Positions 287 through 38,101 of a stretch of 56,169 nucleotides of DNA are shown here, in pieces; within the stretch, counting starts at the first letter, position 1, and every line of letters begins with the position of its first letter. The stretch covers positions 1-56,169 of IMG/VR virus record IMGVR_UViG_3300048548_000892; one strand, 5' to 3'. The notes below the pieces were generated by a model. The model was not told where the DNA came from, did not search any database, and saw only the letters and a list, made by a program, of their open reading frames with translations. Origin of the DNA: a virus. The translations under genes and the position numbers were made by a program.

Positions 287-315
287 TTGACATTCTATCG
301 CGAATCAGATAGTAT
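287..315 (+). promoter_or_regulatory. sigma70-type early promoter with GAATC in the spacer
   Basis: TTGACA at 287-292, a 17-base spacer and TAGTAT at 310-315. The spacer holds GAATC at 302-306, exactly three bases upstream of the -10, as in the other early promoters of this window. It drives the small genes starting at 342. Confidence 0.8.
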
Positions 316-341
316 AGTTCTATAAATGGAAGGAACTATAC

Positions 342-515
342 ATGATTGAACTTATTGTAATTGCCGAACGTCTTCGTAGTTTATCTCGCCGCGCTGATAA
401 CTTTGGTAAATCGCGGCAGGAACTCCTCGAAGAAATTATTATGATTGCTGAAGATTATGAAGATCGCGCCGAGCGTCTTGAAATGGCTCAAATTGTTGAG
501 GCTCAAGCAGTATGA
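342..515 (+). CDS. small helical protein, early, 57 aa
   Basis: Encodes 57 residues starting at ATG 342, preceded by GGAAGGA at about nine bases. The product is almost entirely charged and helical (RLRSLSRRADNF, then EELLEEIIMIAEDYEDRAER), so it is probably a short helical hairpin. The stop overlaps the next start (ATGA at 512-515), so the two genes are translationally coupled. It is the first gene after the early promoter at 287. I do not recognise a family; a host-takeover peptide is plausible by position only. Confidence 0.6.
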   Translation: MIELIVIAERLRSLSRRADNFGKSRQELLEEIIMIAEDYEDRAERLEMAQIVEAQAV

Positions 516-718
516 TATTTTCTACTTCATTGGTAAACACTAAAAACCATTGGGCTGTTGGTACAGAATGGCAATATGCTAAAGGTACAGTAAAAATGCA
601 TAACGAAGGTTTTAGTTGCTCATGCAAAAAGAAACCACGTAAAGCGTGTAGTCATATTCGTAACGTAAAGCTACGGCTGCATGGAACTTTTGATGAATAT
701 TATAAGGAGGCTGCGTGA
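512..718 (+). CDS. small SWIM-type zinc finger protein
   Basis: A 68-residue protein. Its second half contains FSCSCKKKPRKACSHI, which fits the SWIM zinc finger pattern CxC...CxH. In cellular proteins SWIM fingers bind DNA or protein partners and are normally part of large proteins, so a stand-alone version is unusual. It starts inside the stop of the previous gene and ends in TGATG overlapping the next start, within an early operon. The motif assignment is from the sequence; the function is inference. Confidence 0.6.
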   Translation: MIFSTSLVNTKNHWAVGTEWQYAKGTVKMHNEGFSCSCKKKPRKACSHIRNVKLRLHGTFDEYYKEAA

Positions 719-795
719 TGGGAGCTTTTATTGGATGCAGTGTTTTCTTTATTACATTGGTAGCTGTTACAGCTGTATACGAAACATTTTTTTAA
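718..795 (+). CDS. 25-residue membrane peptide
   Basis: ATG 718 overlaps the previous stop (TGATG) and follows AAGGAGG at 703-709, a near-perfect ribosome binding site, which argues that this very short frame is translated. The 25 residues form one hydrophobic segment (GCSVFFITLVAVTAVYETFF), consistent with a single membrane span. Function unknown. Confidence 0.5.
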   Translation: MGAFIGCSVFFITLVAVTAVYETFF

Positions 796-806
796 AGGAG
801 AAATAA

Positions 807-1301
807 ATGCCTAACTGGTGTATGAACGATGTTCTTATTAGTGGACCTAAAGAAAAGATTACTGATCTGTATAATAAAATAATGGATACAGGTGGTCTTT
901 TAGAAGTTATGTCACCTCAAGGAGAATGGGATTATAGTAATGCAGTTGATAAGTGGGGTACCAAGTGGGATGTAGATCCTGAAAATCTTGAAATTGAATT
1001 TGAGAAAGAAGAAGGCTCAATTTCAGGTACTGTGGACAGCGCATGGAGTCCTCCTGTAGAAGCATTTAAAACCTTTTTGAATAATAACCCAGAATGTGTT
1101 GCTGAGCTTAGATATTACGAATCAGGTATGGAATTCATTGGAATATTTGCTGATGGCAAAAATGAATATTTTGAATATGATTCAAACGATATTAATTCGT
1201 TAGACTCGATTCCTAAAGATCTTGTAGAACACTTTAATCTTGAAGAAGAACTACAAATGAACTTTGATGAAAGTGAAGAAATTTGGGAAGATGAATATTA
1301 A
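807..1301 (+). CDS. DUF1281/Api92-like protein
   Basis: A 164-residue acidic protein beginning MPNWCMNDVLISG and containing a WGTKWD segment and SAWSPP. This is the pattern of the Api92/DUF1281 family (ferredoxin-like fold), small proteins widespread in phages and plasmids with no established function. Ribosome binding site AAAGGAG lies seven bases before the start. The C-terminus is very acidic (FDESEEIWEDEY). The next gene starts within its last codons. Confidence 0.65.
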   Translation: MPNWCMNDVLISGPKEKITDLYNKIMDTGGLLEVMSPQGEWDYSNAVDKWGTKWDVDPENLEIEFEKEEGSISGTVDSAWSPPVEAFKTFLNNNPECVAELRYYESGMEFIGIFADGKNEYFEYDSNDINSLDSIPKDLVEHFNLEEELQMNFDESEEIWEDEY

Positions 1302-1677
1302 AGTAGATAATTTAGATGATTCTTTAACAAAAGACTTTGTTAATTTTTGTTGTAAAGAGCTTAATATAAAACCTCATAGCATTGAAGTTGTTGGCGCTGC
1401 GTATTTAGCAGGTAAAGACAGAACAGGAATGTGTATAGATCTTGACGAACAAAGCTATATAATAATGACTGCAGTTAAAGATCGTACTCTTACTGAAATA
1501 TATACTACTGTTGCACATGAAATAGTTCACATCAAACAATACATGGAAAATAATCTCGGTAAATTACTCGACAGCAACAAACCAAAATACGAAGATCGTT
1601 GGTGGGAAAAGGAAGCAAGAGAAAAAAGTTTGGTTTTTGTGAAAAAATTTGTTGACATTCTTGATAGAATCAGATAG
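1291..1677 (+). CDS. HExxH metallopeptidase-like protein
   Basis: About 128 residues from ATG 1291, overlapping the previous gene by 11 bases; an upstream in-frame ATG would overlap more and has no better ribosome site. The core is TVAHEIVHIKQYM (HExxH) with a downstream WWEKEAREKS helix that could hold the third metal ligand. It is a full-length paralogue of the partial gene at the left window edge. No signal peptide or membrane segment, so probably a cytoplasmic minimal metallopeptidase. Target unknown. The next early promoter starts inside its 3' end. Confidence 0.6.
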   Translation: MNIKVDNLDDSLTKDFVNFCCKELNIKPHSIEVVGAAYLAGKDRTGMCIDLDEQSYIIMTAVKDRTLTEIYTTVAHEIVHIKQYMENNLGKLLDSNKPKYEDRWWEKEAREKSLVFVKKFVDILDRIR

Positions 1678-1680
1678 ATT
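1652..1680 (+). promoter_or_regulatory. sigma70-type early promoter with GAATC in the spacer
   Basis: TTGACA at 1652-1657, 17-base spacer, TAGATT at 1675-1680. GAATC lies at 1667-1671, three bases before the -10. The -35 is embedded in the end of the upstream coding region. A second GAATC occurs in the ribosome binding site AAAAAGGAATCA of the gene at 1711. Confidence 0.75.
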
Positions 1681-1710
1681 ATATATATCAAATGGAAAAA
1701 AGGAATCACC

Positions 1711-3627: not shown

Positions 3628-4439
3628 TGGAGCCAAAACTAAAAGGATTTCCAAAGTGCTACGTTGTTAACCTTGAAGAAAGTGTTGAACGTAGAGACTA
3701 TATGAATTCCGAGTTTAATAGACTCGGTTTAGATGGAACCGTCCTACAATACAAAAGACTTGAAGACAGCGATTTAAAGATTGCTGGCGACCGTGACACC
3801 TTGGACATACTACCATTAGGTGCTACTACTTCTCATCTCCTGACCATTAAGTGGTGGTATGAAAATACTGATGATGAACAAGCCGCATTCTTTGAAGACG
3901 ACTGTGACTTTAGCACTATTCAACATTGGAACTTTGTTTATGAGGATTATGTTAAGGAGTTTGGCGTATTGTGGGATGGTCTCCAACTTTGCTGCATGCA
4001 CGAAGGCTGGGCTGTTATGTATCCACGCCACCGCAACGGCCACGATCATGGACTTCAATGCTATGTAATTAAGCGCCATTATGCTAAAAAAATTATAGAC
4101 TATTATTTTGTAAATGATAACACAATACATTTTAAAATGCCGTATGTATTAAAGAGTGAAGATAGTAAAAAGTATAAACCTACTATAGAAAATGTTGTAT
4201 ATGGATTAGGCACTTTCTATATTCACCCGTTATTTAATCATAACGTACCAAAATTTCCATCAACAGTTCACGATCCAAATTCACAACATTTAAAAGATGT
4301 TGCTAATCACGCATATGGATATGTTAAACAGTGGTGGGAAACCAAAGGAGGAACTGGTAACCTTAATGAATTATTTACTTATGAGTGGTGTTGTCCACCA
4401 CCTCAAACATTTTCCCAAGTCATGCATATTGATAGGTAG
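3627..4439 (+). CDS. glycosyltransferase family 25-like
   Basis: 270 residues. CYVVNLEESVERRDYM near the N-terminus and FFEDDCDF about residue 90 match the hallmarks of family 25 transferases (LPS/collagen type), where the acidic EDD motif binds the metal and sugar nucleotide. Such enzymes add sugars to surface glycans. It sits in a run with an epimerase, an oxygenase and an FkbM methyltransferase, suggesting host surface or virion glycan modification. The 3' end overlaps the next gene in another frame. Confidence 0.7.
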   Translation: MEPKLKGFPKCYVVNLEESVERRDYMNSEFNRLGLDGTVLQYKRLEDSDLKIAGDRDTLDILPLGATTSHLLTIKWWYENTDDEQAAFFEDDCDFSTIQHWNFVYEDYVKEFGVLWDGLQLCCMHEGWAVMYPRHRNGHDHGLQCYVIKRHYAKKIIDYYFVNDNTIHFKMPYVLKSEDSKKYKPTIENVVYGLGTFYIHPLFNHNVPKFPSTVHDPNSQHLKDVANHAYGYVKQWWETKGGTGNLNELFTYEWCCPPPQTFSQVMHIDR

Positions 4440-5759: not shown

Positions 5760-6460
5760 AAATACAAAATATTGCCTTGTTTCCAACGAATGTAACTCAC
5801 GCACAACATGAGGTTAGCAAAGAAGAACAAGATCTTTGGTTTGATTTGTATTTAAAACATTCTAATGAAGATGGGAGAACTCATGACCTTTTAGGATATG
5901 AACAAATCCAATTAGAGCCAAGCCTAGAAGGTTTCTTTAAGCATAAAGTAATGCCGAGTGTACGTGAATATTTCAAAACGTTAAGTGTTGACTCAAACAA
6001 GTTTAACGTCCATATAACTAAAACTTTCTTTAACGTTGTTGACGATAACGGAATCAATAAACACAACCACGAAGAAAACCATATATCATTTACTTATTAT
6101 CCATATATAAAACCAGGAAAAGAAAGAAGTATTATATTATATGATACTAAATCTTGCCATTCAAACGAAATAAACACAAGTTGGTTTTTTCATTATGTTG
6201 ATAAATGGACTGAAATGAATTGTACTAATTTTTCTATACCAGTAGGTCAAGGTTCTATGCTTATTTTTCCAAGCAATATGAACCATGATATCACAAAAGA
6301 AAAACATGAAAGTACAGTTATAAATTCGTTTAAAACTAAAGAGGATTTACTTGAAAGCCGGTTTTGTGTTGCAGGTGATATGATCATTACAAAAAAACCA
6401 GAAGCAAAAGTTTATATGAGAACTTTATCATCTCCTGAAAATTGGAAAACATTTGGTTGA
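5756..6460 (+). CDS. putative 2OG-Fe(II) oxygenase
   Basis: 234 residues. NKHNHEENHISFTYYPYI supplies an HxH/E-type metal motif, and GSMLIFPSNMNHDITK has the distal His of the double-stranded beta-helix fold, with a basic region after it. This is the arrangement of the phage-encoded putative 2OG-Fe(II) oxygenases (TIGR02466-like). Substrate unknown. Coupled to the epimerase by ATGA, so it may hydroxylate a sugar nucleotide or glycan. One of about seven such genes in the window. Confidence 0.6.
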   Translation: MKIQNIALFPTNVTHAQHEVSKEEQDLWFDLYLKHSNEDGRTHDLLGYEQIQLEPSLEGFFKHKVMPSVREYFKTLSVDSNKFNVHITKTFFNVVDDNGINKHNHEENHISFTYYPYIKPGKERSIILYDTKSCHSNEINTSWFFHYVDKWTEMNCTNFSIPVGQGSMLIFPSNMNHDITKEKHESTVINSFKTKEDLLESRFCVAGDMIITKKPEAKVYMRTLSSPENWKTFG

Positions 6461-6484
6461 CATTCTAAAAGAATCAGTATAAAT
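6457..6484 (+). promoter_or_regulatory. early promoter with GAATC in a shortened spacer
   Basis: TTGACA at 6457-6462, overlapping the upstream stop codon, then GAATC at 6471-6475. The -10 is either TATAAA at 6478 (15-base spacer) or ATAAAT at 6479 (16). It is one base shorter than its relatives upstream of GAATC, so it may be weaker or more activator-dependent. Confidence 0.6.
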
Positions 6485-6509: not shown

Positions 6510-6734
6510 ATGGATAAGCAAGCTGAAATAGCTACAGAGTTAGCAATTGATATCATGATGAACGGTTTTCATCAGCCTTTAGTAAATGGTAAAGCTAATG
6601 TAGAAAAAATTGAAGACGAAATAGTTAAAGGTATATATGCTCGTGAAATAAAAGACGTTAATCAAGAAACGGTTAATATGGCAGTTATGTTTGTTAACGA
6701 TATAATAAAAGAGTTTGGAGAATTAGATGGGTAA
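6510..6734 (+). CDS. hypothetical protein, 74 aa
   Basis: A 74-residue helical protein (DKQAEIATELAIDIMMNGF start, MFVNDIIKEFGELDG end). Ribosome site AAAGGAG at about eight bases before ATG 6510, and a promoter just upstream. Overlaps the FkbM gene by eight bases. No family recognised. Confidence 0.6.
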   Translation: MDKQAEIATELAIDIMMNGFHQPLVNGKANVEKIEDEIVKGIYAREIKDVNQETVNMAVMFVNDIIKEFGELDG

Positions 6735-16896: not shown

Positions 16897-16925
16897 TTGA
16901 CATTTGGTTTAGAATCAGTTATATT
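16897..16925 (+). promoter_or_regulatory. sigma70-type early promoter with GAATC in the spacer
   Basis: TTGACA 16897-16902, 17-base spacer, TATATT 16920-16925; GAATC at 16912-16916, three bases before the -10. Drives the small genes from 16957. Confidence 0.85.
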
Positions 16926-16956: not shown

Positions 16957-17187
16957 ATGTCAACAATTACACATCTTCCAAACGGTTCAATGATTAAAGC
17001 TGATGTTGTCGAGAGCTTTCAAAAAGCAATCCGCAACGATTTTAACTTGCGCCCTGGTTTTGGTTCAACAGATTTTTGGAATTTTGTTGAGTCTGATATG
17101 TATATGGATCTTGCTGGAATTTACGCTTCAACATACATCGACGAATGCTTTGAAGCATTGGCTGATCTTGAAATGGAGACAGTATAA
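16957..17187 (+). CDS. hypothetical early protein, 76 aa
   Basis: 76 residues, acidic C-terminus (EALADLEMETV). Starts at ATG 16957 after AAAGGAACAA. Coupled to the next gene by TAATGG. Contains a STDFWNFVESDMYMDLAGIY segment with aromatic residues. No family recognised; early-promoter context suggests host takeover. Confidence 0.6.
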   Translation: MSTITHLPNGSMIKADVVESFQKAIRNDFNLRPGFGSTDFWNFVESDMYMDLAGIYASTYIDECFEALADLEMETV

Positions 17188-17665: not shown

Positions 17666-17775
17666 TTTATTGTATTAACGGCAAACGCTTTGATTGTGTT
17701 CTTGACGCCATAGAATACAGAGATATTCTTGATGCTCATTATATTAAAGTGGTATGGAAGCAAATTAACTATTGA
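17662..17775 (+). CDS. 37-residue protein
   Basis: ATG 17662 overlaps the previous stop (ATGA) and the frame runs 37 codons to a TGA that is part of the next promoter's TTGACA. Product MIYCINGKRFDCVLDAIEYR and on looks like a small beta-beta-alpha unit. Coupling suggests real translation. Confidence 0.45.
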   Translation: MIYCINGKRFDCVLDAIEYRDILDAHYIKVVWKQINY

Positions 17776-17800
17776 CATTCTGTTTAGAATCAGTTATATT
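17772..17800 (+). promoter_or_regulatory. sigma70-type early promoter with GAATC in the spacer
   Basis: TTGACA 17772-17777 (overlapping a stop codon), 17-base spacer, TATATT 17795-17800; GAATC at 17787-17791. Strong match to consensus. Upstream of the small membrane gene at 17832 and of the folded RNAs and tRNA-Pro, which it may transcribe. A second GAATC lies in the ribosome site AAAAAGGAATCA. Confidence 0.85.
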
Positions 17801-22266: not shown

Positions 22267-22932
22267 ATGGCAATTTTTTCAGGCCGCATTGAAGATGCGC
22301 ACTACATTAACGAAAAATACGATACAATAGAAATACTCTTTAAATCCGACGATCCTGAAGACACTAAACTTTATAAACATATTATTGAAGCAGATCCTAA
22401 ATCTAAGGATTTTCAAGAATTACAAGCTGATGGTTGGGGTGATAAAGAATTATTAGATGCAACCGCAGAATTTAAAAGACAACACGCAGCTACTTTCAAT
22501 AATGCAGTTCAACAAAGAGCGAGCGCAATTGCTCGTGAAATGATTGGTTTAAACAATCTTAAAAGAGAACGAGATACGTTAGAAAAAGAACGAGATAAAG
22601 TTAAAAACGATATTGAGCGACACCACGGCTGGCTTGAAGAAAAAAGAACCCTTATCAAAAAGAGTGATGAAAAGATTGACGAGCAGCAGGAAGAGTTAGC
22701 ATACACTGAAAGCAAAATTAAAAAAACAGAGTTTCATGTTGATAATGCCTTACTTGAAATTGTTATGAATCATAACGAACAAGGCGACGAACTATTTAAA
22801 TTCAAACTTTGGGCTTTGGAGCAAGAATTTGTAAAATCAGCTCCAAAGGAAGTTAAATCAAAGATCCGTAGAGTAAAACGTATTACACAAGGAATTGCAA
22901 TATTAGACGAGTTGATTGAGACAAACGAATAA
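22267..22932 (+). CDS. hypothetical protein with central coiled coil
   Basis: 221 residues. An N-terminal beta-rich segment (MAIFSGRIEDAHYINEKYDTI), a middle coiled coil (LKRERDTLEKERDKVKNDIE, DEKIDEQQEELAYTESKI) and a basic helical end. Probably a virion or chaperone-like protein. Its stop overlaps the first radical SAM start (TAATG), so it belongs to the same translational unit. Confidence 0.55.
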   Translation: MAIFSGRIEDAHYINEKYDTIEILFKSDDPEDTKLYKHIIEADPKSKDFQELQADGWGDKELLDATAEFKRQHAATFNNAVQQRASAIAREMIGLNNLKRERDTLEKERDKVKNDIERHHGWLEEKRTLIKKSDEKIDEQQEELAYTESKIKKTEFHVDNALLEIVMNHNEQGDELFKFKLWALEQEFVKSAPKEVKSKIRRVKRITQGIAILDELIETNE

Positions 22933-24131
22933 TGAAATGCATGGTTCCTGAAACGGGCATTACAATTAATCCAATAGGCGAAATGGTTTTATGCTGTGCC
23001 GGTGATAATGTTGCGGTTTCTCACATTAAAGATATTGATAACTTATCAGACTTTTTTAATGGTCCAATATATGATAAGTTAAGAAAAGATTTCAAAGAAC
23101 AAAACTTTCCAAAACAATGTGATGTATGCTGGCGTCATTATAACGCAGGTCGTATTGCGCGATTTGATTCCTATAATCGTTTTAATTTTCCAACATATGA
23201 AGAAGATCTTGCGTCTGACGTAATACCAATTCGTTTTCTTGAAATTACAACAAGTAATATCTGTAACCAAATGTGCGTTACTTGCTCAGGTAAGTATTCT
23301 TCAAAGTGGGCGCCATACGAACAGATGGCAGTTGATTATGGTTTAGATTGGAGAAACGAAAACCATAAATTCCATACTGAAACATATAAGATGACAACGG
23401 CTGATGTTGACAAAGTACTTGAAATTGTTCCTGGGTTGCAACACTTAACTATTAAAGGTGGCGAACCTTTTGCAGATCAGAACAATATAAAAATATTAAG
23501 AAAGCTTGCAGACACAAATCCAAATTGCCGCGTTGAGATTTGTACTAATATGCAATTAGTAACAAACACAGTCATTGAATTATTACATCGCATTAATGAG
23601 GTTCATATACAAGCAAGTATAGACGGTGTTGGAGAAATATACGATTGGATTCGTGGTGGTAATTTTGCTAAGACCGCTAATAATATTAAAAGATATCACG
23701 CGCATTCAGGTCGCAAAGTGGTAATCGTATCAACCGTTTCAGTATATAATTGGATGCACTTACCTGAACTTATTGATTATTGGAGAGACGTAGATGGTGT
23801 TGATAGAATTAGTATGGCAAATATGGTAACGTTTCCAAAGTATTGCTCTCCTTTATATTTGTATAATCATCATATTGAAGAAGGCTTAAACAAATTCTTT
23901 GAATATTTGGACAGTAAATATACAAAATCAAATGATTCTTTATATCATAGTGATAAGCTATTGGTAAGCGGTATTAACAATATGCTTAGTGTTAAGCCAG
24001 ATTTTGAGGCAGATGAAAAACCAAGGTGGCAGGAACGCATGGTAAAGTGGATTGACTATTGTCATGTGGCGCGAGAAAATAACGAAGACATTTGGGAATT
24101 GGCTCCTTACTTACAGGAATATAGAAAATGA
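22932..24131 (+). CDS. twitch-domain radical SAM protein 1
   Basis: 399 residues. The radical SAM core has CNQMCVTC (Cys111, 115, 118; CxxxCxxC) for the 4Fe-4S/SAM cluster and IKGGEPFAD for SAM binding. The N-terminal section (CM...GEMVLCCAG...FPKQCDVCW) matches the twitch half of a SPASM domain that binds an auxiliary Fe-S cluster, here placed before rather than after the barrel. Such enzymes modify peptides or small molecules by radical chemistry. Substrate unknown. First of five in a coupled operon. Confidence 0.85.
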   Translation: MKCMVPETGITINPIGEMVLCCAGDNVAVSHIKDIDNLSDFFNGPIYDKLRKDFKEQNFPKQCDVCWRHYNAGRIARFDSYNRFNFPTYEEDLASDVIPIRFLEITTSNICNQMCVTCSGKYSSKWAPYEQMAVDYGLDWRNENHKFHTETYKMTTADVDKVLEIVPGLQHLTIKGGEPFADQNNIKILRKLADTNPNCRVEICTNMQLVTNTVIELLHRINEVHIQASIDGVGEIYDWIRGGNFAKTANNIKRYHAHSGRKVVIVSTVSVYNWMHLPELIDYWRDVDGVDRISMANMVTFPKYCSPLYLYNHHIEEGLNKFFEYLDSKYTKSNDSLYHSDKLLVSGINNMLSVKPDFEADEKPRWQERMVKWIDYCHVARENNEDIWELAPYLQEYRK

Positions 24132-25294
24132 AATACGTAGATGTTGTAAATAAGTATAGATCTGATAACTTTCCAGATATGTATAAGCCTATAACTTGCT
24201 GGTCTCCATTTCAAGCTATGCATATTAATAAAAAAGGGGATGTTCGATCGTGTCCTTTTCAAATGAAAAAAGGAAGTGATAGATATTTTACTCGTGAAGA
24301 CGGAACGACATACAGAGGTGAAAATATCGCAATTGAAACTTGGTCACCTGAAAAAAGCTTGCTTGATATATGGAATGGCAAACCTTTTGAAGCTATGAGA
24401 TTAGAATCTATGGAAGGTAGCCTACATGATTTTTGTCTTTATTGTATAAACCAATGTAAACAAGATAAGCCTCCTAGTAGCTTAGATTTTGATTGGGTTG
24501 GCGGCGAAAGAAGTATTTCTCACGAATATCCACGAGAAATAGAATTAGAACTTTCAAATAGTTGCAATTATCATTGTGCATTTTGCAGTCCTTTTCATTC
24601 ATCTCAACATATGGAAGCAATGGGATTACAGGATGATCCAAGATTTAAAAGCGTTTTTGACGATACAGAAATTAAAGAAGCTTTTATTGAAGATTTAAGA
24701 AGTATTATTCATAACATTTATAGGCTTAACTTTACAGGTGGCGAGCCATTTGCACAAAGGGTTGTATATGATATTCTTAAAATGATTGATGAAGAACAGC
24801 CTGAAAATTTAGGCGTTCATTTTACAACTAATGGTAGTATTATGAATGGCGCCGTTCGCAAAATAGCTCAAAGAAATAATGTAAGATTTACAGTATCATT
24901 AGACTCATTAGATCCAGAAACATATCCTCAATTAAGAATTAACGGTAATTTAGAAAACGTTTTAAATAATATCGAAACACTTAGACAAACCCAAGCCTAC
25001 ATCGGTTGTTCCTTTGTGATAAGTAAGATGAACGTTAGGGAATTGCCTAATATTATTTCATGGTGTAACGAAAAACAAATTGAATTTTCTTATCATCTTA
25101 TTGTTCCGATGATGAACGAAAAAAAGTTTAGAGATATTGTTTATCCTCAATCGGTTGAACTTCAATCAAAAGAATATATACAAGAACTTAAAAGTTATTT
25201 AGGAAATGCTGAAATTTATATGAATAAGAAAAATGATTACTTGTCGAATAAAAACTTGACTATGTTTAAACAATATATTGAAAGATTAAAATGA
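24128..25294 (+). CDS. twitch-domain radical SAM protein 2
   Basis: 388 residues. CNYHCAFC is the cluster motif, NFTGGEPFAQ the SAM motif. N-terminal twitch-type Cys are visible (VRSCPF, FCLYCINQC). Start overlaps the previous stop (ATGA). It is closer to protein 3 than to protein 1 by eye (SLDPETYPQLRINGN and similar blocks). Confidence 0.85.
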   Translation: MKYVDVVNKYRSDNFPDMYKPITCWSPFQAMHINKKGDVRSCPFQMKKGSDRYFTREDGTTYRGENIAIETWSPEKSLLDIWNGKPFEAMRLESMEGSLHDFCLYCINQCKQDKPPSSLDFDWVGGERSISHEYPREIELELSNSCNYHCAFCSPFHSSQHMEAMGLQDDPRFKSVFDDTEIKEAFIEDLRSIIHNIYRLNFTGGEPFAQRVVYDILKMIDEEQPENLGVHFTTNGSIMNGAVRKIAQRNNVRFTVSLDSLDPETYPQLRINGNLENVLNNIETLRQTQAYIGCSFVISKMNVRELPNIISWCNEKQIEFSYHLIVPMMNEKKFRDIVYPQSVELQSKEYIQELKSYLGNAEIYMNKKNDYLSNKNLTMFKQYIERLK

Positions 25295-26391
25295 TTAAAA
25301 ATTGGGATAAGTTTCAGGCGAGACGAAGAATACCTGAAGAACATAAAATGATTGGTTGTTATGCTGCATTCAATCATATGAGAATTTCAAAAGACGCTTC
25401 AGTGCATCCGTGTTGTTTTAATAACAAAAGACATAATTGGTTGCATGACGGTAGTTTAAAGGAATATTGGTTTAATGGATTAAACGTAGAATACCAAGAT
25501 GCATTTTTAAATCAAGAACTACATGAAGGATGTCAAATTTGTTTGCAGAGAATTGAAGCAGACTCTCATCCTGCCATTGTTGAATATGATTACAATATGG
25601 GAGATGATAGATTAGAATACGCAATGAATTCTGGTAATTATCCTAAAATTATTGAATTTGAAATATCAGATTTGTGCAATTTAGAATGTGAGATGTGCCA
25701 TGCAGGATTATCATCAAAATTGAGAATGGGAAGAGATAAGCATTTAGTTTCTAAACATCCATACTATCGCCAAACAAATGAGTTTGATAAAGAAGAAAAT
25801 ATGAATGAGTTAATTGAGCAACTAAAAGAATTTATCCCTCATCTTGAAGAAATTAGATTTGTTGGTGGAGAGCCTTTCGCCCATAAAGGTATGTTTAAAT
25901 TAGCAAAAGTTATTTCAGAAATTAACCCATCTGTTGTATTAAGGGTTTGTACTAATGGCACAATATTCAATAAGCAAGTAAAAAGCATATGTGAAAATAA
26001 TAATTTAAAAGTAACTATCTCTTGTGATACCGTTATAGAAGAAGAATATAAGCAAATTAGAATTGGCGCAAACTACAAAAATACATATGATAATATTCAA
26101 AAATTTAAAGAAGCAATTGGTACTGAAAATGTAACAATTAACGCGACATTTATGTCAGTAAATGCCGAAAATATGGATAAATTTTTTGAGTATGCTATTG
26201 AAAATGGTTTTAATACATTTATTAATGTCTATGTTAGAGAATGGAGAGAGCATACAAAGGATTGGAGAATTGAAACCATGTCCGATGAGGTTAAACGATC
26301 TGCATTAAATAAAATGAAAGAACTTTTAAATAAAACCAACAAGTCTAATCACGTGGCTGAAATTAATAAAGTTATAGGATTGTTGAGTTGA
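25291..26391 (+). CDS. twitch-domain radical SAM protein 3
   Basis: 366 residues. CNLECEMC cluster motif, RFVGGEPFAH SAM motif, N-terminal Cys pairs (VHPCCFNN, HEGCQICLQR) for an auxiliary cluster. ATGA overlap with protein 2. Resembles protein 2 in spacing and in the region after the barrel. Confidence 0.85.
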   Translation: MIKNWDKFQARRRIPEEHKMIGCYAAFNHMRISKDASVHPCCFNNKRHNWLHDGSLKEYWFNGLNVEYQDAFLNQELHEGCQICLQRIEADSHPAIVEYDYNMGDDRLEYAMNSGNYPKIIEFEISDLCNLECEMCHAGLSSKLRMGRDKHLVSKHPYYRQTNEFDKEENMNELIEQLKEFIPHLEEIRFVGGEPFAHKGMFKLAKVISEINPSVVLRVCTNGTIFNKQVKSICENNNLKVTISCDTVIEEEYKQIRIGANYKNTYDNIQKFKEAIGTENVTINATFMSVNAENMDKFFEYAIENGFNTFINVYVREWREHTKDWRIETMSDEVKRSALNKMKELLNKTNKSNHVAEINKVIGLLS

Positions 26392-27455
26392 AACCGTGCT
26401 ATTGGCCTGATCATGGAGCTGTTATAGATTCGCAGGGGTTTATCAAGCCGTGTTGCATGATGGGCGGTTATGAGATGTTAAATAATAATCACAACGTTTT
26501 AGATGGTATACATATAGACCATACTGATTCTATAAATGAATATTTTTATAGTGATTTTTTAATCTATTTAAGAAAAAGTTTACAAGAAAACAACATTGAA
26601 GGCACACCAGAATGCCATAATTGTAAGCTGCAAATAGAAAATAACGTAGGTCGGCATTTTCAGCAATCATACGAGTATTCAGACTATGCGATGGATGGAT
26701 CTATTAAATTTTTAGAAATTACCACGAGTAATATATGCAATCAAACATGCGTTACGTGTAACAGCTATTTTAGTTCTAAGTGGGAAACAATAGAACAACT
26801 GTTTAATGATAAATTTCAAAAACGAAAACAGTTTAATTTGTCCAATGATGCAATGGATAAAATTATTAAAGTTTTACCTGAGCTAAAAGTTCTTAATATA
26901 AAAGGTGGAGAACCTTTCGCTGATATTAGAAACGCAAAAATTTTGGAAAAATTAGTAGAAGTAAATCCAGATTGCCAGGTTTGGATATTATCAAACGCGT
27001 CTATTATTTCTAATAGATTTATAAAAGTACTAAAAAGAATTAAAAACTTAAGCTTAACTGCTAGCTTAGATCATATTGGTAAAAAATATGAGTGGATACG
27101 AAGTACTCCTTTTGACCAGACTCTATATACACTTAAAAGAATATATGAAGAAACTGGTATCAGATTTAGTGTTTCGCCTACAATATCATATTTTAATATA
27201 TTAGATATGGAAGAAATTAAAAGCTTTTACGAAGATTTTGAGTATACAAAATGGCATATTCAAAATTATAATGATTACAATTTTGTTCGTTGGCCAGCTG
27301 AGATGGATTGTCTTAATACGAGAACTCAAGAAGAGTTAGACTCTATAGATCGCGGACTAATATCTAAGTTTAATCCTCATAAATATAACGAGTTACAAAA
27401 TAAAATTAATATTATGAATGAAATAAGAGGATTTGATTGGTCAGATGAATTATAA
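26388..27455 (+). CDS. twitch-domain radical SAM protein 4
   Basis: 355 residues starting at TTG 26388, which overlaps the previous stop (TTGA); no ATG is suitably placed. CNQTCVTC cluster motif, NIKGGEPFAD SAM motif, N-terminal IKPCCMMGG and TPECHNCKL Cys pairs. Strongly similar to protein 1 (IxFLEITTSNICNQ and KGGEPFAD blocks), so they are paralogues. Confidence 0.85.
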   Translation: MKPCYWPDHGAVIDSQGFIKPCCMMGGYEMLNNNHNVLDGIHIDHTDSINEYFYSDFLIYLRKSLQENNIEGTPECHNCKLQIENNVGRHFQQSYEYSDYAMDGSIKFLEITTSNICNQTCVTCNSYFSSKWETIEQLFNDKFQKRKQFNLSNDAMDKIIKVLPELKVLNIKGGEPFADIRNAKILEKLVEVNPDCQVWILSNASIISNRFIKVLKRIKNLSLTASLDHIGKKYEWIRSTPFDQTLYTLKRIYEETGIRFSVSPTISYFNILDMEEIKSFYEDFEYTKWHIQNYNDYNFVRWPAEMDCLNTRTQEELDSIDRGLISKFNPHKYNELQNKINIMNEIRGFDWSDEL

Positions 27456-28629
27456 GAGATGGCAATGGCATAACTTAACGTTTGACGTTGAACTTACTAC
27501 GCACTGTAATCTCAAGTGCCCACAGTGTTCAAGGACAGATCATAGGAATAATTTAAATAAGATGGAGTGGTTACCGCTTACGTCTGTTAGCCTAAAAGAT
27601 TTCATGAAATGGTTTCCTCCGACTATTATACAATCAATTGGGTGTATTCATTTTTCAGGAACTTACGGCGATCCTGGGATGTGTAAAGATCTAATGGATA
27701 TTGTTAAGTATCTTGCGTTAGAAGGTACTTGCCGTATTTCTATAAATACAAATGGATCCATGAGAGATGAAGAGTTTTGGTTTAACCTTGCGGCTTGGGG
27801 TGGTTCAAGACTTCAACTTATATTTGATGTTGACGGTATTGACCAAGAAATGCATAGCTTTTATCGCCGAGGATCCGATCTCAATAAAGTATTAGATGCA
27901 ATAGAAGTAACCTCAGGTACTGATGCAAATATCAAAGTACTTACTGTTTTATTTAAACACAATCAAGACTATCTTGAAGATATTCGTAATATGGTTAACG
28001 AACGCGTACAAAAGCCAATTAAGTTTGATGAAGTAGAAGGAAATAACTTTCAGCATACTGGATCTAAATATGAATTTTTAAACGAGAATGGCGAGACTGA
28101 AATTCTTGAGCAGGTTACACGACAAGATAGAGAACAAGGATTAGAACGTAGAACTCGTCGAGTACGTGATCATCGCCATAAAGATATTGTTACCAATATT
28201 AAATCAAATGAATCTAATTTATTACCTATTGAGGATAAACCTATTATACCACAGGTAGTTGAGCCTGTCAAACAAAAAACGAAAGAATACGAAATAAATT
28301 GTTTAGCTGTTGGCGAGAATAATATCAAAGTACAAGCAAGTGGTATGGTATCGCCATGCTGTTATCTTTCAACATCGTTAGAGCGAGCTGCTATCTACCA
28401 AAAAGATCAAGACACTCAATATATGATTACGTCAACTGGCAAACATGCTGATCCCAAACATCCATTAATGCAAGAATATGTTGACAATTGGAAAGATTTT
28501 AATTTACATTATAGTAGTATCTATGATATAATGGAATCAACGTGGTTTAAAGAAAAGCTTCCTGAGCATTGGGAAACTCCTGAAACGGCTTGCCACGCTT
28601 GTGTTAAAGTATGCGGAAAATTAAAATGA
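27445..28629 (+). CDS. radical SAM/SPASM-type protein 5
   Basis: About 394 residues from ATG 27445. Here the core is N-terminal (CNLKCPQC, residues about 18-25; FSGTYGDPG replaces the usual GGEP) and the accessory Cys are C-terminal (GMVSPCCYLS, ACHACVKVCG), the classical SPASM/twitch order. A basic linker of about 60 residues (RRTRRVRDHRHKDIVTN) separates the halves. It diverges from the other four and may be the catalytic partner of another step. Confidence 0.85.
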   Translation: MNYKRWQWHNLTFDVELTTHCNLKCPQCSRTDHRNNLNKMEWLPLTSVSLKDFMKWFPPTIIQSIGCIHFSGTYGDPGMCKDLMDIVKYLALEGTCRISINTNGSMRDEEFWFNLAAWGGSRLQLIFDVDGIDQEMHSFYRRGSDLNKVLDAIEVTSGTDANIKVLTVLFKHNQDYLEDIRNMVNERVQKPIKFDEVEGNNFQHTGSKYEFLNENGETEILEQVTRQDREQGLERRTRRVRDHRHKDIVTNIKSNESNLLPIEDKPIIPQVVEPVKQKTKEYEINCLAVGENNIKVQASGMVSPCCYLSTSLERAAIYQKDQDTQYMITSTGKHADPKHPLMQEYVDNWKDFNLHYSSIYDIMESTWFKEKLPEHWETPETACHACVKVCGKLK

Positions 28630-31648: not shown

Positions 31649-32203
31649 ATGTCACTTGAAATAATAGATATATTACATGATAAAGATACTTTATTTGAAG
31701 TAACAGATAGAGCTGCTGAGATTCACCCAGAAAATTTTAAAACCTTTAGAGATAGAGTAAATGGATACAGTCATTTCTTTGCAGTAAAATTAGAAGGGGA
31801 AATTGTTGCTATATCTGGAATATGGCGATACAAATATTGGCCAGATAATTATTTTAGAGTTGGTGATAGAAGTTTTTATTTTCCGTCCATACGTCAGTAC
31901 AATCTAGGTAATCCGTACTATAAACCTAATAAAGCCATTAGCAGCCAAATTTTAATGCCAATGCAAACAGAAATAGTATTAAAACAAGGTGGAATTCCAT
32001 TTTATAGTATGCTAAATCATATTAATGCTTTAAAAAGATCTGTTAATATTCAAAATGAAGTGGTAAAAAACAAGTATAAAGTTATAGATGGTTTATATTG
32101 GACTTGTCCATCTAGTCCAAATAAAAATGAAAAAAGTTGTTGGCAAAACATAGCTACGTTAGAAGGGTTTAAAAATGATTTTAAATTACCAAGACTTTAT
32201 TAA
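31649..32203 (+). CDS. hypothetical protein, possibly acetyltransferase-like
   Basis: About 184 residues from ATG 31649 (a TTG lies one codon earlier). HFFAVKLEGEIVAISGIWRY recalls strands 2-4 of GNAT acetyltransferases, but the Gly-rich acetyl-CoA loop is missing. YWTCPSSPNKNEKSCWQN near the end has two Cys. Function not assigned. Its end overlaps the next gene by 29 bases. Confidence 0.45.
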   Translation: MSLEIIDILHDKDTLFEVTDRAAEIHPENFKTFRDRVNGYSHFFAVKLEGEIVAISGIWRYKYWPDNYFRVGDRSFYFPSIRQYNLGNPYYKPNKAISSQILMPMQTEIVLKQGGIPFYSMLNHINALKRSVNIQNEVVKNKYKVIDGLYWTCPSSPNKNEKSCWQNIATLEGFKNDFKLPRLY

Positions 32204-32690
32204 TCATATAGAATTAAAATATGATAAAGAAGCTTTGATTAAAGAATTCGATTCAACTGAGCTAGTTCCTTATACACCTAGTCGCCAAACCAAAGGTGAA
32301 ACGTGGTTTTCTTATCAACCAGATTGGCTGACAAGGACCATTGATGATTATCGTTTCCTTCCTGAAATGGATAAGATTAGAGAGTATATTGCTTCTGTCT
32401 ATGGTTTTGAACCTGTTGGTAAAATGTTTCAGTTATCTGAAAATATTGAAATACCACCACACAAAGATATGGGTCATAGAGCTTGTATTAATATAGTTCT
32501 TTCTGAAGATCCTGCTCCAGTGTATTATAAAGACTTTGGAGAAATAACTTATACGTGTGCTATATTAAACGTTGCACGAAGACATGGTGTTAAATCTGGC
32601 CCAAAAAGAAAAATGATTAAATTTCAATTAGGTAATCTATTTTATAGTGAAGCTGTAGGGATATGGAACACAAAGCACTCTATCACATAA
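32175..32690 (+). CDS. putative 2OG-Fe(II) oxygenase
   Basis: 171 residues. IPPHKDMGHRACINIV provides HxD and a strand, and ILNVARRHGVKSGPKRKMIK gives the distal His and a basic residue for 2-oxoglutarate. The order fits the double-stranded beta-helix. Overlaps both neighbours by about 28 bases in other frames. Confidence 0.6.
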   Translation: MILNYQDFINHIELKYDKEALIKEFDSTELVPYTPSRQTKGETWFSYQPDWLTRTIDDYRFLPEMDKIREYIASVYGFEPVGKMFQLSENIEIPPHKDMGHRACINIVLSEDPAPVYYKDFGEITYTCAILNVARRHGVKSGPKRKMIKFQLGNLFYSEAVGIWNTKHSIT

Positions 32691-33142
32691 ACTTTCCAAT
32701 TTCAAAAGAACTATTACTTAATGAAGCCATGTCTTTTGATGATTATCAACCTTATCATGATGCAAAGAATAATCGCTATTTGGATGATTGGTTGCAAAAA
32801 CATACAAATGAAGGTTTGGCTTGGGACTTAGCACAGAAATATAAAACTGATCTTGATCTTAGTGACATACGACCAAGATATTATATTCAGAAAAGTGGCT
32901 TTACTCTCCCTTGGCATAAAGATAGAGGAACTGGGTGCAGCTTTAACTTTGTTCTTGATGGAACATCATCAATTAGTTTTCGAGATGGCGACTTCTATTA
33001 TAAGTCAGCAATATTAAACACTCAAGTAGAACACGCAGTATTCCAAACAGAAAAAGACACTGACCGAGTGCTTCTCAAATTCAGTGTCTTTGATTTATCT
33101 TTTGATGAAGTTGTAAAGAGATATCAGGTTAAGTATATGTAA
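32663..33142 (+). CDS. putative 2OG-Fe(II) oxygenase
   Basis: 159 residues. FTLPWHKDRGTGCSFNFV (HxD) and ILNTQVEHAVFQTEKDTDRV (His and Arg). Paralogous in layout to the previous gene. It converges with the minus-strand gene at 33129 with a 14-base overlap. Confidence 0.6.
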   Translation: MEHKALYHINFPISKELLLNEAMSFDDYQPYHDAKNNRYLDDWLQKHTNEGLAWDLAQKYKTDLDLSDIRPRYYIQKSGFTLPWHKDRGTGCSFNFVLDGTSSISFRDGDFYYKSAILNTQVEHAVFQTEKDTDRVLLKFSVFDLSFDEVVKRYQVKYM

Positions 33143-33434
33143 TATCTACAGTAAAGCCAGCTTGTTCCCAAGCAGCTTTAGCAGTATCATAAAATGCTTT
33201 TACTTGATCACTATGAACTGCATCATAGGTTCTTGTGACATTAATAGTATTATTATTTGAGAAATCACGAGACCAACTTTCTGGCTGAAGAGTTTCCCAA
33301 ATAAATTCCCACATTGCAACATCATCAACTTCAATGGAGTTAATCAAAACTTCAGAAGTTGCGGATATCATATCATCCTCTTGTGCATAAGTTTCTGATG
33401 ATGCAATAATTATTGTCTGTGTTTCTGTTGTCAT
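33129..33434 (-). CDS. hypothetical protein, 101 aa
   Basis: 101 residues, acidic, no Cys or clear domain. The C-terminal helix (DQVKAFYDTAKAAWEQAGF) and beta ending (TVDITYT) suggest a small alpha/beta fold. Ribosome site AAAAGGAGATT precedes the start, and a late promoter lies upstream. Confidence 0.55.
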   Translation of the reverse strand: MTTETQTIIIASSETYAQEDDMISATSEVLINSIEVDDVAMWEFIWETLQPESWSRDFSNNNTINVTRTYDAVHSDQVKAFYDTAKAAWEQAGFTVDITYT

Positions 33435-33452
33435 CGATAATCTCCTTTTGAT

Positions 33453-33460
33453 TATTTATA
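33453..33460 (-). promoter_or_regulatory. T4-type late promoter TATAAATA
   Basis: Minus strand reads TATAAATA 19 bases before the start at 33434. Late expression of the 101-residue protein is likely. Confidence 0.65.
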
Positions 33461-33506
33461 ACAATTGTTGCTGTCTTTAAATTAATATCATAATATACTG
33501 CTTCCA

Positions 33507-34094
33507 TTATAAATCATCCTGTCCATTAATGCATAGAATTAATCGAATATCATCTGTACCACCAATATTCCAGGCACTATGCAAACAACCTGGATTTACA
33601 AACCAAGCACTACCATCTGCTTTTAAATGTCTGACTTCTGGTATTTCATCAGTCTTACTTTTCACTGCAGTCATAGCCCAAGGATTTGTTTTGAGTGGAA
33701 TATAAACTCGAATACTATAGTTTGTATCATAATCAATATGTGGAAGAATCATAGCACCTGGTTCTTTTACGATCAGTCTGCTACGAGTGATTGGTGACTT
33801 AAACATACCAATCACTTCTTCAACATATGTTCCTTTGTATTCTGGTAAGATTTCACCATAGCATCTCTCATCTTCATTACCATTACTAAGATACGTCAGC
33901 TCACCTTTGACTCCAGTAACTGGTGTTTGCTTATACTTGTCATTCAGATAAGGACTACCACAGACCTCACTAATTGAATCTTGTTCATGATGGAAGTTTT
34001 CAAAACACTTTAAGAGACGATCTACATCAACTTGAACGTGTTCTATTTTTTTAAAATTTGGAAGCTCATGTCTTCTCTTAAGTGTGGTGGTCAT
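33507..34094 (-). CDS. aspartyl/asparaginyl beta-hydroxylase-like oxygenase
   Basis: About 195 residues from ATG 34094, after GAAGGAAATC; a longer frame lacks a ribosome site. AMILPHIDYDTNYSIRVYIP holds HxD, and WFVNPGCLHSAWNIGG the distal His, followed by DDIRLILCING with the 2OG-binding Arg. This is the layout of the Asp/Asn hydroxylase family. Its start lies within the 3' end of the desaturase gene. Confidence 0.7.
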   Translation of the reverse strand: MTTTLKRRHELPNFKKIEHVQVDVDRLLKCFENFHHEQDSISEVCGSPYLNDKYKQTPVTGVKGELTYLSNGNEDERCYGEILPEYKGTYVEEVIGMFKSPITRSRLIVKEPGAMILPHIDYDTNYSIRVYIPLKTNPWAMTAVKSKTDEIPEVRHLKADGSAWFVNPGCLHSAWNIGGTDDIRLILCINGQDDL

Positions 34095-34626
34095 AATGAT
34101 TTCCTTCAAAAGGTGCAAAAATATTTATCCACCATTTATTAGTTGGTCCATTTTCGTCATGTCCAAAAAAGTTTATTAGACCGAAACTAACAAATGATAT
34201 GGGTAAAAGTGCTGCTAAGTAAAGCAGAACGATTGGATTTATCAAATACGCTATTAAATAAGTTACCAATAAAATAATCCACATAAACTTGTGTAAAAAC
34301 ATTGCTCTAGGATTTTTGTATAAAGATTTTATAAATTTTCTAGGAATAGACTTTACTCTAAACGTTGAAAACAAAACTGTTATCGCTCCTTTATGTTTTG
34401 GGCTGTGAGGGTCTAATTCAGTATCAGAATAAGCATGATGCATTCTATGCATAGCAGCCCAAGTCAACGGAGATCTTGCGCAACATAGCAATCCAATGTA
34501 CAAAACAAAAAATTCTAAAATAGGATTTAATTTTAGTTCATTGTGCGATAAACATCTATGATAACCGATAGTTAATCCTATAGCAGCCATTATCCAATAA
34601 AATACGTACAACATTATCAAACTCAT
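34078..34626 (-). CDS. fatty-acid desaturase-like protein, C-terminally short
   Basis: 182 residues from ATG 34626 (ATGA overlap with the upstream gene). Three His boxes of membrane di-iron desaturases are visible: HRCLSH (residues 23-28), HRMHH (60-64) and the third, HYDHH, at the very end. Hydrophobic spans lie between them. Cellular delta-9 desaturases are roughly 280 residues or more; here the protein stops right after the third box. It may still fold as a minimal enzyme or be a remnant. Acts in the membrane on acyl chains, if active. Confidence 0.7.
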   Translation of the reverse strand: MSLIMLYVFYWIMAAIGLTIGYHRCLSHNELKLNPILEFFVLYIGLLCCARSPLTWAAMHRMHHAYSDTELDPHSPKHKGAITVLFSTFRVKSIPRKFIKSLYKNPRAMFLHKFMWIILLVTYLIAYLINPIVLLYLAALLPISFVSFGLINFFGHDENGPTNKWWINIFAPFEGNHYDHHT

Positions 34627-35336
34627 TTTAACACCTCGTAAGCATTGACCTGAAGAGCAAAAAAGAAAGTATATACTCTTTCCGCAGTCGAGTAAGCGTG
34701 ATGCCATTTTGCTGTATCAGCCAGATATAATCTGCCTTTTTCAACGTTTTCTTCTTCTATATATTCTTGTTTTTCTTCATCCCAAAAACAAAAATGATTA
34801 TTTTCTGGATCGTTAGTTCCCCATATTCTCAAATTTGCAGGAGGAATAGTTACATCAATGTGTGGTTTGAAATGTGCCCCCGTGTTCCATTTTAATATAG
34901 TACAACGTGCTAACATTCCGTCAAATATTTGCATAGGATCTAAAGATTTCATATTTTTCATTATTTCATTTGGATATTTGAAATCTGTATCAAACAATGG
35001 GTTGTCTGGATGTTCTAAACACCACACATCCATTGGCCAATTAACTGGACTTGGTTTCATATCAATTGGATTTTCAAGGTCTGTAAGTCCAAGAGAATAC
35101 CTTTCTAAGTCAGTATGAGTAGGTCCAAATTGCTCGAATAAATGGTCGTATCTTTTTATCTCTTCTTCAAATAAATCACAATCAATTTTTATATCCAAAG
35201 GAACAAGATTTTTAGTGTGAATTTCTCTATACTTTTCTTCAGGTAATCTATCTCGAGATAAAGAAAGATTTCTAAAATGTTCCCATTCCGGCCAGTTTGA
35301 TAGTTTATCATAATTAGATCCAGGTTCATAATTCAT
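34623..35336 (-). CDS. putative 2OG-Fe(II) oxygenase
   Basis: 237 residues. GAHFKPHIDVTIPPANLRIW has HxD, and LADTAKWHHAYSTAERVYTF has the distal His and the Arg. Aspartyl hydroxylase-like layout. The N-terminal 120 residues carry a family-specific helical region. Coupled by ATGA to the genes on either side. Confidence 0.65.
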   Translation of the reverse strand: MNYEPGSNYDKLSNWPEWEHFRNLSLSRDRLPEEKYREIHTKNLVPLDIKIDCDLFEEEIKRYDHLFEQFGPTHTDLERYSLGLTDLENPIDMKPSPVNWPMDVWCLEHPDNPLFDTDFKYPNEIMKNMKSLDPMQIFDGMLARCTILKWNTGAHFKPHIDVTIPPANLRIWGTNDPENNHFCFWDEEKQEYIEEENVEKGRLYLADTAKWHHAYSTAERVYTFFFALQVNAYEVLK

Positions 35337-35869
35337 AGTAAAACTCCAACCAAATGAATTCTTTCTGATCTACTACCATTAAAGGCTGCATGCATTTTTT
35401 CTGTATTAGTAATCCACCACTCATTATAAGGAATATGAAATACCTCATTTTCTATTACCATCTTGCAGGATTGATCTGTTTTTATTGGGTAATGCAATCT
35501 TTTACTAACATCTTTATGCCAACTAGTACAAGCAAAAGGAACACTGCGCATTAGTCTTAATCTTCCTATTGTGTATCGATCATTTAGAAGATTAAAAACT
35601 TCTTCGAAAATTGTTCCTCTAAAAACATCACACAGAACAATAAAATCTTCATCGTATAGCGGATGTTCAAATTTTGGTAAACGAACTATGTTTCCTGCTT
35701 TATCTTTAACTACTTTATCCCAATTGTAATATAAGCTTTTACATCCTATAGTCCAGTCATGAGATTTTCCTCCCGGAGCATTCAAGCAAATTTGGTTAAG
35801 ATTCCAATTTACCAAACCTTTTGATATGAGCTGTCTTAACTCGTCTTCTAAATTTTCAAAAATTGGCAA
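35333..35869 (-). CDS. putative 2OG-Fe(II) oxygenase
   Basis: 178 residues. CTSWHKDVSKRLHYPIKTDQ (HxD), and WWITNTEKMHAAFNGSRSER (distal His and Arg). Similar layout to its neighbour. Four-base overlap with the downstream gene. Substrate unknown. Confidence 0.65.
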   Translation of the reverse strand: MPIFENLEDELRQLISKGLVNWNLNQICLNAPGGKSHDWTIGCKSLYYNWDKVVKDKAGNIVRLPKFEHPLYDEDFIVLCDVFRGTIFEEVFNLLNDRYTIGRLRLMRSVPFACTSWHKDVSKRLHYPIKTDQSCKMVIENEVFHIPYNEWWITNTEKMHAAFNGSRSERIHLVGVLL

Positions 35870-36569: not shown

Positions 36570-36598
36570 TTGACATATCGTTTTGCCTGTGGTATACT
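36570..36598 (+). promoter_or_regulatory. early promoter with GATTC just after the -10
   Basis: TTGACA 36570-36575, 17-base spacer without GANTC, TATACT 36593-36598. GATTC follows at once (36599-36603). Drives the gene at 36625. Confidence 0.8.
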
Positions 36599-36624
36599 GA
36601 TTCTATAAACAGAAAGGATACAAG

Positions 36625-36807: not shown

Positions 36808-36836
36808 TTGACATTTCGTTTAGAATCAGTTATATT
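36808..36836 (+). promoter_or_regulatory. sigma70-type early promoter with GAATC in the spacer
   Basis: TTGACA 36808-36813, 17-base spacer, TATATT 36831-36836; GAATC at 36823-36827, three bases before the -10. Its leader also has AAAAGGAATCA as ribosome site for the gene at 36868. Confidence 0.85.
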
Positions 36837-36867
36837 AATAGTATAACAAAATGAAAAGGAATCAGTA

Positions 36868-37275
36868 ATGGCTTTTACATACTCAGACGATTGTATCTCA
36901 GATCTTCATAAAGAAGTTTACGGCTACCGTCCTCGCGGTGCTTTCTTCGATGATTGGTCTAACTGTACTCCTGCTGAAAAGCAAAAGACGTGGGATGAAT
37001 ATTGCCGTGCTCTTGAAATTCAAATGGCTGAAACCAAATCTCAGGAAGAGCAAGACGTCGCCAAGTTTGAAGCTCGAGTTCAAGACGTAATTGGTCTTGG
37101 CGCCAACGACCGTAAAACAGCGCTTAGCTGGATTACTGGTTCTGAAACCTTTTATCACTCTCAAGATGTTGAACATTTTGTGTGGGAGCAAGGAATTTTG
37201 TTTACTCAATACGGTAAGCAGTTAGTTAAAGATCTTTTGAAGATCGTTGAATATAAGGAATATGATTATGCTTAA
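36868..37275 (+). CDS. hypothetical early protein, 135 aa
   Basis: 135 residues, acidic, with YGYRPRGAFFDDWSNCTPAE at the start and helical segments afterwards. Unrecognised. Early-promoter context. Overlaps the next small gene by eight bases. Confidence 0.6.
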   Translation: MAFTYSDDCISDLHKEVYGYRPRGAFFDDWSNCTPAEKQKTWDEYCRALEIQMAETKSQEEQDVAKFEARVQDVIGLGANDRKTALSWITGSETFYHSQDVEHFVWEQGILFTQYGKQLVKDLLKIVEYKEYDYA

Positions 37276-37441
37276 TAAGTACTTTAGAATTGAAGCTTTT
37301 TCTTTTGAAGATGGCGAATACAAGTTGCAAGAGTTCGCAACTGGTTTTGCTCATAAGCAAGCCGCTGATTACTTTCGTCGCCTGCATGATACTAATGAAT
37401 TTGCTAAGATCACTATGAAACCTGTAAAGGCAGCTGCGTAA
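37268..37441 (+). CDS. hypothetical early protein, 57 aa
   Basis: ATG 37268 lies seven bases after AAGGA; the in-frame ATG at 37262 is too close to it. 57 residues (LNKYFRIEAFSFEDGEYKLQ and on) with an HKQAADYFRR helix. The stop overlaps the next start (TAATG). Confidence 0.55.
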   Translation: MLNKYFRIEAFSFEDGEYKLQEFATGFAHKQAADYFRRLHDTNEFAKITMKPVKAAA

Positions 37442-37575
37442 TGACTGAAAGATTAATATACGGAACTGCAATTGCAATTGCTCTTGTGTTATGTGGATGG
37501 TATATAATCCACATTTGGTCTGATTGTTTAAACGAAAACTCAGTGTTTACTTGTATGCGGATGCTTAATAAATGA
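37441..37575 (+). CDS. small membrane protein, 44 aa
   Basis: 44 residues with one hydrophobic span (LIYGTAIAIALVLCGWYIIH) and a short Cys-containing tail. Start shares TAATG with the previous stop; end shares ATGA with the next. Function unknown. Confidence 0.5.
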   Translation: MTERLIYGTAIAIALVLCGWYIIHIWSDCLNENSVFTCMRMLNK

Positions 37576-37823
37576 CAAAGCTAACAAACCCTCTCGAGAT
37601 TTCAGAATACAAACAGCGTTGGATGCGAGAAGGATCGCATTCAGTTCAAATCCATAGTGATCTTCGTAACAAAGCGTTAGACTATTGTAAAGTTCAAATG
37701 TTCAGACAACAGTGGGTTCATAGGAAGTATACAGATGTATATGAAGATACATTCTTTTTTGAGCAATTGCTTGACGCAAAAGCTTTTGCAAATTATTTTA
37801 AAGAATGGGTAATTAACGATTGA
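37572..37823 (+). CDS. hypothetical early protein, 83 aa
   Basis: 83 residues, basic, with a QRWMREGSHSVQIHSDLR start and a long helix with VQMFRQQWVHRKYTD. Promoter at 37820 begins in its last codon. No family recognised. Confidence 0.55.
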   Translation: MTKLTNPLEISEYKQRWMREGSHSVQIHSDLRNKALDYCKVQMFRQQWVHRKYTDVYEDTFFFEQLLDAKAFANYFKEWVIND

Positions 37824-37848
37824 CATTCGTTATGAAATAGTATAGAGT
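37820..37848 (+). promoter_or_regulatory. degenerate early promoter
   Basis: TTGACA 37820-37825, then GTTATGAAATAG (where others have GAATCAG) and TATAGA 37841 (15-base spacer) or TAGAGT 37843 (17-base). The GANTC is mutated to GAAAT. A GAATC remains in the ribosome site AAAGGAATCACT of the gene at 37875. Confidence 0.5.
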
Positions 37849-37874
37849 AATTTTACAACAAAAGGAATCACTCT

Positions 37875-38069
37875 ATGACACTATACACTAAAAAATCCGA
37901 AATTCTTTTTAACTATCTTGTACTTCCTCACTGGGAAAACCGTGAGGATTTTGGTCTTGTACATCTTGACACCAATGAAACAATCTATGAAGGTACCTGT
38001 TTTGAGTGCTGGACTTATCTTGCTAAAATCCAACCAAAGTGTCGTTGGTTACAAAAATATGTGAAATAA
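37875..38069 (+). CDS. hypothetical early protein, 64 aa
   Basis: 64 residues with many aromatic residues (YLVLPHWENREDFGLVHLDT, then CWTYLAKIQPKCRWL) and three Cys. Good ribosome site AAAGGAATCA. No family recognised. Confidence 0.55.
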   Translation: MTLYTKKSEILFNYLVLPHWENREDFGLVHLDTNETIYEGTCFECWTYLAKIQPKCRWLQKYVK

Positions 38070-38072
38070 CTA

Positions 38073-38101
38073 TTGACATTCCGTCGCGAATCAGATATAT
38101 T
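38073..38101 (+). promoter_or_regulatory. sigma70-type early promoter with GAATC in the spacer
   Basis: TTGACA 38073-38078, 17-base spacer, TATATT 38096-38101; GAATC at 38088-38092. Drives the genes from 38131. Confidence 0.85.

Follow-up and report, generated by a model that had tools for sequence, protein, structure and literature searches.

Organization of the window

The stretch of phage DNA analysed here (the window) is 56,169 bp long, with a GC content of 35.7%. It encodes T4-type replication genes (sliding clamp, clamp-loader subunits and RegA) and is probably part of the genome of a T4-like marine phage. The best named-phage matches to its clamp loader are only ∼55% identical, so the phage is without a named close relative; for comparison we used two relatives, G008 (221 kb) and G030 (201 kb).

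A clear C5 cytosine methylase lies at 45035–46276, and there is a weak Eco57I-methylase-like match at 41367–42029. A run of ORFs at 22932–28629 has radical-SAM-like cysteine motifs, and ORFs at 32175–35869 resemble 2OG-Fe(II) oxygenases and a fatty-acid desaturase (the profile test covered the desaturase alone). Four tRNA genes (Arg, Leu, Asn, Pro) are predicted at 2752–2916, 3670–3756 and 18191–18267.

Promoters with GAATC in the spacer

The sequence-only reading had described seven TTGACA promoters carrying a GAATC site, all of which were borne out.

287–315, + strand: promoter 1; TTGACA 287–292, GAATC 302–306, −10 TAGTAT 310–315; 57-aa ORF at 342 downstream
1652–1680, + strand: promoter 2; TTGACA 1652–1657, GAATC 1667–1671, −10 TAGATT 1675–1680; ORF 1711–1935 downstream
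6457–6483, + strand: promoter 3; TTGACA 6457–6462, GAATC 6471–6475, −10 TATAAA 6478–6483; spacer 15 or 16; ORF 6510–6734 downstream
16897–16925, + strand: promoter 4; TTGACA 16897–16902, GAATC 16912–16916, −10 TATATT 16920–16925; ORF 16957–17187 downstream
17772–17800, + strand: promoter 5; TTGACA 17772–17777, GAATC 17787–17791, −10 TATATT 17795–17800
36808–36836, + strand: promoter 6; TTGACA 36808–36813, GAATC 36823–36827, −10 TATATT 36831–36836; ORF 36868–37275 downstream
38073–38101, + strand: promoter 7; TTGACA 38073–38078, GAATC 38088–38092, −10 TATATT 38096–38101; ORF 38113–38412 downstream

The σ70 elements are TTGACA in 7/7, an AT-rich −10 and a spacer of 15–17 bp, and the overall layout is TTGACATT-N5/6-GAATCAG. 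The finer claims also held. The spacer is 17 bp in six of the seven, the 6457 promoter having 15, or 16 if another −10 is chosen; GAATC ends 3 bp upstream of the −10 in the same six, and 2–3 bp upstream in the 6457 promoter; and the flanking bases are conserved, GAATCAG being invariant. Measured from the −10 box, GAATC thus starts at −8 in six promoters and at −7 in the short-spacer one. Searching the window for TTGACAN{8,14}GAATCAG gave seven forward matches, exactly these promoters, with none on the reverse strand and none for the reversed-pattern control. The genes behind them are presumably early, given the kind of promoter and the small, uncharacterized genes that follow.

The count of GANTC against a shuffled expectation, proposed when the promoters were first described, revealed overall depletion: 112 were observed in the window, as against 168 expected from dinucleotide shuffles and 157 or 145 from order-2 or order-3 Markov models. 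Because GANTC is depleted overall, the spacer GAATC is not a product of chance; the promoter feature is real and strongly non-random.

GAATC also occurs shortly before start codons (AAAGGAATCA), at 1703, 17823, 36859 and 37865, the second of these being a further GAATC (17823–17827) in the ribosome-binding region behind promoter 5. In G002, a record from a separate T4-like phage group, TGATTCGTTATG is found at many start codons. Near start codons GAATC may be only ribosome-binding sequence.

Other σ70-like promoters

The seven are not the only strong σ70-like promoters of the window. When it was scanned for TTGACA without mismatches, followed by a good −10 and with a start codon close by, 15 candidates emerged: the spacer site is present in seven, GATTC follows the −10 immediately in three, and the other five have neither. 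One of the three, at 51124, lies inside a dUTPase-like ORF, and two of the five are convincing (47760 and 37820).

36570–36603, + strand: second class; TTGACA 36570–36575, −10 TATACT 36593–36598, GATTC 36599–36603 directly after the −10
52241–52273, + strand: second class; TTGACA 52241–52246, −10 TATATT 52263–52268, GATTC 52269–52273 directly after the −10
47760–47788, + strand: plain σ70-like promoter without GANTC, ahead of the sliding clamp; internal contrast
37820–37848, + strand: σ70-like promoter with TTGACATTC, lacking GANTC both in the spacer and immediately behind the −10; serves as internal contrast

The layout of the 52241 promoter recurs in G008, and the sliding-clamp promoter is plain in G008 and G030 also. 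The picture is best explained if the strong σ70 promoters of this phage form at least two classes, which we consider likely.

Positional enrichment in related phages

Enrichment was measured in 84 promoters from three marine genomes (the window, G008 and G030), retained after dropping those ≥75% alike. Relative to the −10, 11 of the 84 have a GANTC starting between −9 and −7, where 0.62 would be expected (P = 6e-11), and 8 have one starting at +6 or +7, where the expectation is 0.42 (P = 1e-8); both P-values assume independence, which the filtering secures only partly. Because the marine promoters are related sequences, raw counts overstate their independence; redundancy filtering reduced the marine upstream sites from 32 to 11. 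At both positions GANTC was the most enriched of the 256 XYNZW patterns. The fixed promoter position claimed in the sequence-only reading is therefore upheld, and the downstream position, immediately after the −10, is an addition to it.

The same motif was also sought in related phages, as that reading had suggested, and was found in G008, in G030 and in the separate group represented by G002. TTGACA-N7–9-GANTC sites numbered 13 in G008 and 15 in G030, with no match to the reversed controls. G002 yielded 14 non-redundant promoters, of which 4 have the upstream site against an expectation of 0.17 (P = 3e-5), and the whole record contains 11 TTGACA-GANTC sites, all on one strand, one of them GATTC.

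A scan for TTGACATN7GANTCAGNTA returned at least 120 stretches, many of them apparently matching by chance within coding sequence, and the clamp-loader neighbourhoods of 80 relatives yielded only four TTGACA-GANTC matches. The trait was absent from five named alphaproteobacterial phages (HTVC008M, phiM12, phiM9, Atu_ph07 and phiCbK); together with non-alphaproteobacterial T4-like phages these gave 0–3 matches each, or 14 altogether, the reversed control giving 11. As named phages are at the control level, the trait belongs to certain lineages. Promoter BLAST against named phages gave weak matches only, with none to an alphaproteobacterial phage among the matches listed.

Candidate hosts

One gene in the window serves as a host indicator.

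53237–53662, + strand: pseudoazurin-like gene; groups with Rhodobacteraceae (Paracoccaceae) copies in a tree

Its relatives are mostly alphaproteobacterial, and it suggests that the hosts are probably marine Rhodobacteraceae, an indication drawn from one gene family, two of whose nearest hits, L325 and L331, are apparent phage contigs in MAGs. L325 is filed under Muricauda sp. TMED12 and L331 under Rhodobacteraceae Water_Bin34. The pseudoazurin-like gene lies near a DoxX-family gene (53237–54367), an order repeated in L325 (3001–3821).

Of the candidate-host genomes tested, 17/20 contain GcrA and 15/16 a RAMA domain. In the Rhodobacteraceae genome G036, the RAMA protein scores 554 bits against Caulobacter CcrM (6PBD), and the GcrA resembles its Caulobacter counterpart, above all in the DNA-binding domain, which aligns over its whole length. 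The sequence-only reading could not have survived a host lacking CcrM or GcrA; candidate-host genomes encode close orthologues of both, the host itself being deduced from the phage gene. In the promoters of the candidate hosts themselves, the architecture was no commoner than the reversed pattern.

Sequence preference and the nature of the reader

Upstream sites from the four genomes (n = 41) comprise 40 GAATC and one GATTC; downstream sites (n = 14) are divided equally, seven of each, so that both orientations occur. Neither GACTC nor GAGTC was present among the 55 sites, N being A or T in all of them, whereas C and G together account for 41–56% of N in all GANTC of the three marine genomes and for 19% in G002. 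CcrM methylation alone would leave N free, and a sequence reader is therefore implied. The preference extends beyond the pentamer. GAATC has 2.0 bits of information, compared with 0.2–0.9 for the spacer bases five to three positions upstream, and one promoter class has the 7-bp element [A/C]GAATCA, equivalent to TGATTC[T/G], located within the spacer or immediately downstream of the −10. TGATTCG/YGAKTCK has been put forward as the extended motif for activation by GcrA in Caulobacter, a preference not observed in Brevundimonas (PMC7987155). YGAKTCK is fitted by all seven spacer sites of the window, by 41/41 upstream sites overall and by 11/14 downstream sites, as against 28–40% of all GANTC.

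We believe that the best explanation, with a probability of about 0.7, is that these are σ70 promoters activated by host GcrA at CcrM-methylated GANTC. This interpretation, already advanced in the sequence-only reading, gains support from the positional enrichment, the fit to the extended motif, the presence of both proteins in candidate hosts and the second enriched position.

Another host or phage transcription factor might instead bind TGATTC[T/G] beside the −10 regardless of methylation, its overlap with GANTC being incidental. Such a factor would account for a conserved unit that exceeds GANTC (GAATCAG in the marine clade) and for the restriction of N to A or T, a limit that CcrM alone would not need. 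However, the published motif for activation by GcrA accommodates this 7-mer, the sites flank the −10, beside the σ2 domain contacted by GcrA, and the analysis identified no such factor; we regard this alternative as unlikely.

Less probable again is a promoter cassette spread by duplication, in which GAATC hitchhikes or is favoured by σ70 contacts alone. TTGACATT and a AAATTAACTA-like upstream sequence are common to the marine copies, and several promoter pairs are near-identical. Nevertheless, enrichment holds after filtering at 75%, and GAATC is invariant whereas the bases between it and TTGACATT vary. GAATC is also common to differing promoters, both in the G002 set and ahead of homologues of the 36868 gene. 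Promoter 6 is kept ahead of close homologues of that gene; other homologues (L256, L257 and L271) have a differing promoter, TTGACAAGCTAAACGAATCATAG, and still have the GAATC site in common. In L247, whose copy of the gene is 95% identical, the spacer site is absent and GATTC is present after the −10. The existence of a second position, in both orientations, likewise argues against a copied cassette.

The most improbable alternative is that GANTC methylation blocks the promoters, or acts directly on polymerase, and unmethylated phage DNA is transcribed: GANTC is depleted overall in the window and in about half of pelagiphages (PMC9516812), which suggests that methylation or restriction at GANTC can matter to phages, but both where the site lies in the spacer and which motif is preferred agree with the activating class of GcrA sites.

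A model for activation by GcrA

If GcrA does activate these promoters, GANTC adenines in the phage DNA would be methylated by host CcrM, and host GcrA, held on domain 2 of σ in RNA polymerase, would read the methylated site beside the −10. It would then promote promoter opening, leading to more transcription of the small downstream genes. In the GcrA–polymerase structures 7YE1 and 7YE2 the site is reportedly placed both upstream and downstream of the −10. GcrA binds σ2 and recognizes methylated DNA, and at methylated promoters it stimulates formation of the open complex (PMC7403470); a cofactor held on σ2 could act from a site on either side of the −10. In Caulobacter, start sites that have GANTC between the −10 and −35 make up a separate temporal class (PMC4287350). 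Tuning of the phage genes to the cell cycle of the host is possible. The sequences themselves show the architecture, position and motif, their recurrence in relatives, and GcrA and CcrM in candidate hosts; we infer the host identity, the methylation of phage DNA, GcrA binding, activation and early timing.

A methylation clock is a doubtful extension of the model. Methylated parental DNA would be read by host GcrA and the genes would start at once; replication would then outrun CcrM, and promoters on under-methylated copies would be turned down.

Comparison with known systems

T4 early promoters are strong host-σ70 promoters ahead of small genes, and those described here resemble them in lying before small genes in a T4-like genome; unlike the window, the T4 record lacks any TTGACA-N7–9-GANTC. 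Other phages are known to act on the GcrA/CcrM system: phiCbK has a GcrA homologue and sinorhizobial phages have CcrM analogues, as cited in PMC9437464. Those phages carry the protein, whereas among 28 related phage records here GcrA was not found and a PF01555 methylase was present only in G018. The latter (L405, G018:C1:12887–14359) lies in a 534-aa open frame, and a TTGACA-GAATC promoter follows shortly downstream of it, at 14421.

Phage use of host CtrA is already known. CtrA-regulated promoters of alphaproteobacterial phages are similar to ours in apparently using a host cell-cycle regulator, and differ in having CtrA sites and in belonging to other phages; a survey of alphaproteobacterial phages found GcrA sites without positional bias (PMC9437464). 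Our literature search turned up no description of phage promoters organized around GcrA/CcrM sites. If our interpretation is correct, phage gene expression would be linked to host methylation state in marine bacteria, and the natural promoters, dozens of them with the site at one of two fixed positions, would provide a test set for how a methyl-reading σ cofactor works.

The closest parallel is with the GcrA/CcrM-dependent σ70 promoters of Caulobacter crescentus, in which GANTC is close to the −10, including between the −10 and −35, and the extended motif is TGATTCG/YGAKTCK (PMC7987155, PMC4287350, PMC7403470). The promoters described here differ from them in being phage promoters with a perfect TTGACA, in having the site at two narrow positions, and in that their methylation and GcrA binding are predicted.
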